Below the pieces are notes generated by a model. It was not told the DNA's origin. It saw nothing but the letters and a program-made list of their open reading frames with translations, and ran no database searches. A DNA stretch of 64,000 nucleotides. Origin: an uncultured Eubacteriales bacterium (lineage in GTDB: Bacteria > Bacillota > Clostridia > Oscillospirales > Acutalibacteraceae). The position numbers and the translations under genes are program-made. Shown here in pieces: positions 24,647 through 57,315 of this stretch. Position 1 is the stretch's first letter. Every line of letters starts with the position of its first letter. Location: contig OMYO01000007.1 of assembly GCA_900315285.1 (NCBI GenBank), positions 1 through 64,000 of the forward strand, written 5' to 3'.

Positions 24647-24813
24647 CTCATACCTAATACTCAGATTAAGGTGGCCTAGTATGAGTAAAATTCGATAGTA
24701 CGCAACCAATCTCATACCTTCCAGAGTGAAAACCTTTTGAAGGTATGAGTTGATATTGGTATTGGTCGGCCTGACTCATACTTTGTGACGTAAAAAACCT
24801 TACTTGATATGAG
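24647..24813. repeat. Three-unit array of CTCATACC / GGTATGAG inverted repeats, period 64 bp
   Basis: Left arms CTCATAC[C/T] are at 24647-24654, 24711-24718 and 24775-24782. Right arms, variants of GGTATGAG, are at 24678-24685 (AGTATGAG), 24742-24749 (exact) and 24806-24813 (GATATGAG). In every unit the arms are separated by exactly 23 bp, and units start exactly 64 bp apart. The middle unit has an extended perfect 11-bp arm (CTCATACCTTC). The 23-bp interiors and the 25-bp linkers differ between units. The geometry matches the array at 54830-55120. Confidence 0.85.
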
Positions 24814-45303: not shown

Positions 45304-45380
45304 GGGCGATTCACTCCTTTTCCATCTTATTATAATGGATTTTCCGGACACGTGCTTGTACTTCTCTGACTGGGAAGCGC

Positions 45381-54535: not shown

Positions 54536-54574
54536 TTACCACCGCATGCCCAAAATATTGGGAAAAGGTGGTAA
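54536..54574. repeat. Single inverted-repeat unit TTACCACC-23 bp-GGTGGTAA
   Basis: TTACCACC (54536-54543) and its exact complement GGTGGTAA (54567-54574) are separated by exactly 23 bp. Inside lies a second inverted repeat, CCCAA-AATA-TTGGG. A second TTACCACC at 54694-54701 has a decayed partner (GTAGGTAC) at the same 23-bp distance. Same geometry as the arrays at 24647 and 54830, with a different arm sequence. Confidence 0.7.
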
Positions 54575-54829
54575 AAGGCCACCCTATTCTGTCAAATTTA
54601 AATTACAAAATATAATAATATGTATTATATATTTCAATTTAGCTTCGGTTCTCTGCCAAGGAGGCCGGAAAATAAACTGAAAACAGTTGAAAATTACCAC
54701 CTTCCTTTCAATAATGTGGCGAGGGTAGGTACTTTTTAAGAAAAATACCCATAGGGGGTATCCAGTGCCACTGACCGGAGGGCGGCATCATTTGGGTGGT
54801 ACAGTTTTTTGCGAAGCATGGGGGGCGAT

Positions 54830-55120
54830 TTAACTGCTTTCCATTCATTGACCCCATTTTGCAGTTAGTTTTTCTGCTGCCGCCATGGTTGGTTAACTGC
54901 AAATGATTTGTAAAATCTGGAATGCAGTTAATTTTCTATGGCGGCAGGTAGCGAGTTAACTGCATTCGTTCTCTGAACGCCCTATTGCAGTTAATTTTTC
55001 TGCAGCCGCCATGGTTGGTTAACTGCAAATGATTTATAAAATATGGATTGCAGTTAATTTTTCTGTTGCTGCCATGGCTGATTAACTGCAAATGATCGAA
55101 GCAATGTGGTTTGCAGTTAT
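54830..55120. repeat. Five-unit array of TTAACTGC / GCAGTTAA inverted repeats, period exactly 63 bp
   Basis: TTAACTGC starts at 54830, 54893, 54956, 55019 and 55082, every 63 bp. Its complement GCAGTTA(A) starts at 54861, 54924, 54987, 55050 and 55113, always leaving exactly 23 bp inside. Linkers between units are always 24 bp. Read the other way, four 40-bp repeats (GCAGTTAA, 24-bp core, TTAACTGC) alternate with 23-bp interiors. The cores at 54869, 54995 and 55058 share TTTTTCTG and a GCCGCCATGG-like part; the core at 54932 carries it in the opposite orientation. Three interiors start AAATGAT and are related; two are not. Confidence 0.92.
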
Positions 55121-55193
55121 ATTCCCAAAGGTATCCAGTGCGCACGTTTTTCCTGAAGTAATTACCCATTCACACAATGATTGAGCAAAAGAA

Positions 55194-57260: not shown

Positions 57261-57315
57261 AAAATACGGGCGATTCACTGGTTTGTAACAGCCGGTGAAT
57301 CGCCCATTATTTTCA
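57261..57315. terminator. Two-way terminator between GH20 and pepF
   Basis: GGGCGATTCAC pairs with GTGAATCGCCC; A-rich on the left and T-rich on the right, so it can serve both convergent genes. Confidence 0.85.

Follow-up and report, generated by a model that had tools for sequence, protein, structure and literature searches.

Interspersed bacterial repeats of the BIME kind have been known for decades, but it is still debated whether they are of use to the chromosome or only to themselves. BIMEs, known from E. coli and its relatives, are built of repeats that alternate in orientation at regular spacing (PMC2817692) and, like the REPs, they are extragenic, present in many copies, found preferentially between convergent genes and specific to the species in their sequence (PMC2817692, PMC1525189). 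REPs are palindromes of 20-40 bp that form hairpins, carry a GT(A/G)G head and are associated with a RAYT transposase, while REPINs, described from Pseudomonas, are mostly single, long hairpins with compensatory changes (PMC3116915). A comparable principle is found in parS (sopC) of the F plasmid, where twelve 43-bp repeats carry ten 16-bp inverted motifs bound by protein, in tandem and at a period of about four helical turns (PMC6238139).

The arrays described here are likewise extragenic, regularly spaced, alternating, multi-copy, biased towards convergent gaps and species-specific. They differ from REPs in that their half-sites are of 7-10 bp and their interiors are unpaired, that several cores share one geometry, and that their linkers step by helical turns; the half-site TTAACTGC, of 8 bp, is not palindromic and lacks the GT(A/G)G head. 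They resemble REPINs, some of which occur in tandem clusters, as inverted doublets of a conserved short word around a spacer that is constant in length and less conserved in sequence, but they comprise about 3-11 units and are devoid of compensation. Membership in the REP/BIME or REPIN classes was rejected on the hairpin, head-sequence and RAYT tests made. The F plasmid, for its part, has one centromere with a contiguous 16-bp motif, in contrast to dozens of chromosomal arrays whose half-sites lie 23 bp apart. Their mode of action may nevertheless be that of a binding array of the BIME or centromere type. What is kept in them is the spacing and the short half-site rather than the bulk sequence, and this in several unrelated cores of one genome. 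An earlier note on this DNA had stated that the layout matches no described bacterial element, which is too strong, since BIMEs also alternate regularly (PMC2817692) even if their defining features differ; no description of the layout itself was found in the open-licence literature.

In the window, that is, the whole stretch of 64,000 nucleotides analysed, the array lies in a gap between tandem genes, after a cysteine-rich gene with no match in Pfam and before nagB. Its 39-bp unit consists of an 8-bp half-site, 23 bp and an inverted half-site, and there are five of them in the direct reading: TTAACTGC-23-GCAGTTAG at 54830-54868, TTAACTGC-23-GCAGTTAA at 54893-54931, 54956-54994 and 55019-55057, and TTAACTGC-23-GCAGTTAT at 55082-55120 (no strand is assigned to these or to the other features of the window). 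The four linkers (54869-54892, 54932-54955, 54995-55018 and 55058-55081, spanning 54869-55081) are all of 24 bp, and the inner spacing of 23 is equally invariant. Five half-sites and five complements had been claimed; TTAACTGC is indeed perfect at 54830, 54893, 54956, 55019 and 55082, and so is its inverted copy GCAGTTAA at 54924, 54987 and 55050, whereas the outermost inverted copies, GCAGTTAG at 54861 and GCAGTTAT at 55113, match at 7 of 8 positions. The flank at 54782-54829 holds a terminator-like sequence and then GGGCGAT, which touches the first half-site, and is partly common to other arrays of the same sub-family. Identical copies of the 12-bp GGTATCCAGTGC flank the array at 54757-54768 and 55130-55141, possibly as a target-site duplication or by chance. 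Upstream there is a lone unit with another core and the same geometry, TTACCACC-23-GGTGGTAA (54536-54574), and an extra TTACCACC half-site at 54694. The window also contains a second array of a different core, CTCATACC-23-GGTATGAG, with three units at a period of 64 (24647-24813), in a gap between convergent genes.

The window array is not an isolated or chance structure. In the 2.08 Mb of its own genome, the pattern TTAACTGC-(18-30)-GCAGTTAA has 115 matches per strand against 0 for a reversed-pattern control; with the inner length set at 23 and at most one mismatch, 142 units per strand are found. Twenty-six arrays of this core were read, the one in the window and 25 others, some of them ended by contig edges. 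They hold 5-22 half-sites each, and the complete ones mostly start and finish on a whole unit. The inner length is 23 in 147 of 150 half-site pairs; two of the three exceptions measure 24, and in the third the pair is 93 bp apart with two half-sites missing between them. The 131 linkers measure 24 (70), 25 (57) or 23 (4), counts that are not independent within one array because units arise by duplication. The exact 63-bp period reported for the window's array holds there, but genome-wide, with linkers of 23-25, the mean period is 63.43. The linkers average 56% G+C, compared with 30% within units.

The constancy of these lengths stands out against the drift of the sequence between the half-sites. 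Between homologous unit pairs, divergence per position is 0.036 in the half-sites and 0.32 in the filler, approximately ninefold more, and for most unit pairs the identity of the filler is only that of background (median 0.35). Given filling so diverged, constant lengths would not be expected without constraint, and the fixed spacing with variable filling that had been noticed in the window is borne out across the genome. Mutations are more frequent in terminal half-sites, of which 13 of 44 are affected, than in those further inside (26 of 255). The arrays form sub-families that have a common filling and, in part, common flanks, and that are spread over many contigs, which implies that arrays have dispersed as well as expanded; that duplication does expand them follows from higher-order repeats of 126/127 and 190 bp. 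Next to some arrays lie further intergenic tandem repeats with short periods of 16-18 and 37 bp (L041:2682-3005, L033:2781-2973 and L048:2762-2880). A search of 299 further Acutalibacteraceae genomes yielded no array of TTAACTGC, and the exact core was not matched anywhere in GTDB r220, where the species itself may be missing.

The same geometry recurs with other cores, for which about 467 kb were surveyed. Regularly spaced chains of inverted 7-mers in alternating orientation were sought by a generic scan, which offers a route to such arrays by geometry, without a known core sequence. The scan was controlled with composition-matched shuffles and covered under a quarter of the genome. It detected 16 chains in a 333-kb sample of DNA not fetched for its arrays and including the window (48 per Mb), and 6 chains in 412 kb from genus-mates (14.6 per Mb), one probably coding; the genus-mate match L192 12514 (period 84) was excluded, being probably a protein-coding acidic repeat. 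The 605 kb taken from 40 other genera of the family, the 1.49 Mb from 80 other loci of Clostridia and the shuffles gave no chain at all, so that among the genomes sampled such arrays are restricted to the genus. The own genome has at least six further families, most of them with a similar half-site separation: AACTAGGACC (136 units genome-wide, inner length 23-24, period 74-75 or 64; no pairs in 149 other genomes searched), CTCATACC (23, period 64), TTACCTAC (23, period 63-64), TTACCACC (23-24), ATAGGACA (mostly 21-24) and TTTACCGCAT, which together with GCTGCAT makes up a second geometry class with an inner length of 16 and a period of mostly 50. In genus-mates the cores are TACCGCC (period 74), TCGGTCA (62-63) and CTCCATC (61). 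The search of this genome and its relatives for the geometry seen in the window has thus been answered by 26 TTAACTGC arrays, further cores and arrays in genus-mates. At the one locus compared, that of YgiQ, the neighbouring gene is not syntenic in genus-mates.

Another way of looking at these families is to consider the lengths of their linkers, which in several of them step by one or two helical turns (10-11 bp per turn). With 3-33 bp allowed, CTCATACC linkers measure 15 (3), 25 (7) and 26 (2); with 10-40 allowed, those of AACTAGGACC are almost all 31, and 30, 33 and 21 are rare among the matches listed, while the AACTAGGACC subset with a 64-bp period has linkers of 20-21. The TTACCACC linkers are of 3, 14 and 24-25, and those of CTCCATC in a genus-mate of 4 and 24. 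The 50-bp period of TTTACCGCAT and GCTGCAT is not a whole number of helical turns. For TTTACCGC, with 12-34 allowed, the inner length is 20 in all 15 units of the own genome, whereas the 9 units from three genus-mates all measure 25-26, from which it follows that the spacing is fixed within a species and changeable between species.

Genes were called by codon usage, and none of them is overlapped by an array. Of the 23 distinct gaps whose two neighbours are both known, 16 are convergent, 7 tandem and 0 divergent, against a convergent background of 34 in 272 gaps (12.5%; p about 4e-10 for the enrichment); where one neighbour is known, the gene points toward the array in 19 of 20 cases. Convergent gaps are also just the safest location for any repeat, which counts against the protein-array reading given below. 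Some 63-bp arrays are open in one reading frame, 63 being a multiple of three; a coding repeat was rejected because the 64-bp arrays do not keep a frame and the arrays all lie clear of called genes.

Taken together, the fixed separation within units, the same-face spacing and the independently varying half-sites argue for a dimer that reads double-stranded DNA and meets its neighbours. The arrays are best explained, with moderate confidence, as putative sites at which a dimeric protein would bind double-stranded DNA cooperatively along one face of the helix. Each 39-bp unit would bind a sequence-specific protein as a dimer, with the two domains that read the DNA three helical turns apart; linkers that add whole helical turns would bring neighbouring dimers to one and the same side of the DNA and into mutual contact, and the contacting dimers would form a cooperative nucleoprotein array. 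Related proteins, or ones with the same oligomer architecture, would read the multiple cores of similar geometry, and the arrays at the 3' ends of genes would probably act as boundary or anchoring platforms of the chromosome (topological barrier or roadblock), comparable in location and layout to the BIMEs of E. coli. Ten genes neighbouring arrays, when checked, had no family in common, and no multi-copy family of DNA-binding genes was found in the sampled 22% of the genome. The spacing and half-sites kept in several unrelated cores, together with the helical-turn steps of the linkers, make a function as a protein array directly testable.

The earlier note had left the choice between a protein that bridges half-sites and a hairpin RNA under structural selection. 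The second of these, in which arms of 8-10 bp would pair in RNA hairpins or cruciforms acting as terminators or mRNA stabilisers, agrees with arms that are fully complementary in most units, with the location at the 3' ends of genes and with the terminator-like sequence that some arrays abut. It was rejected and is now very improbable because none of 41 half-site substitutions (positions changed in one or both half-sites) is compensated. Moreover, pairing across the 23-nt interior is lower than in shuffled halves (z = -3.1), the purine after AACTAGGACC varies in each arm independently and is mismatched in 9 of 35 units, and Rfam gave nothing above the gathering score, with three sub-threshold matches only; linker steps of a helical turn would be meaningless for RNA. 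The bridging protein is the better supported of the two, given that the spacing is kept, the filling drifts and the linkers differ by whole helical turns. Just as improbable as the hairpin are ordinary tandem repeats, in which a single 63-bp unit would have been multiplied, free of constraint, by slippage or unequal crossing-over. The repeats of 126/127 and 190 bp do reveal expansion by duplication, but the origin in a simple recent duplication is already contradicted by the spacing data: the filler has diverged down to background identity between most units, the inner length is constant, linker lengths differ by a single base or by helical turns, and the geometry is common to unrelated cores.

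The main rival is a transposase-driven, BIME-like origin, in which the arrays would be non-autonomous mobile repeats of the REPIN/BIME type, the unit would serve as end or target for the transposase or recombinase that spreads it, and the spacing would be the footprint of the enzyme dimer rather than that of a host protein. The sub-families of common filling scattered over many contigs, some with a common flank, speak for it, as do the strong species specificity and the regular alternation and convergent placement known from BIMEs and REPs (PMC2817692, PMC1525189). It is nevertheless considered unlikely, because the own genome has 0 matches to PF01797 (Y1 transposase, RAYT family) at E<=0.001, where control genomes do match, because the arrays have neither the GTAG-headed hairpin nor the compensatory changes common in REPINs (PMC3116915), and because linkers of whole helical turns are not obviously demanded by a transposase. 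Less likely still are dispersed partition or centromere-like arrays of the ParB/parS type: the repeats of sopC (PMC6238139) follow a similar principle, but here dozens of arrays with several cores extend across contigs, and the ParB motif is a contiguous inverted repeat. A CRISPR array has one repeat in direct orientation with unrelated spacers of foreign origin. The half-sites here alternate in orientation, their fillings are diverged duplicates and there was no phage or plasmid match, so both a CRISPR array and a phage or plasmid origin were rejected.

Returning to the cooperative dimeric protein, a broader and more tentative proposal, which we hold to be possible rather than probable, is that of a chromosome-organising system restricted to the genus. 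Related dimeric proteins that bind DNA, diverged in the half-site they recognise but sharing a geometry, would each have their own helically phased arrays between convergent genes, and the cores and inner spacings would change between species.

Some further observations concern the genus and its genomes. One genus-mate carries a Y1 transposase (L203, G006 contig 116:334-690; PF01797, E=5e-40) that is absent from the other seven genomes of the genus. The MutS of the own genome has at most 61% identity to the named relatives found, mostly uncultured Clostridia, and these relatives suggest a gut habitat. Finally, the 11-bp word GGGCGATKYAS occurs throughout the genus, with 507 copies in the own genome and, for seven genus-mates, 62-279 apiece, compared with 2-8 for the reversed pattern, and it resembles DNA-uptake or Chi-type words. 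About half of its copies in the own-genome sample are intergenic, although the sample is 83% coding. The window has copies at 45304, 57268 and 57296, and an inverted pair of the word (57268-57305) lies directly past the stop codon of a gene.
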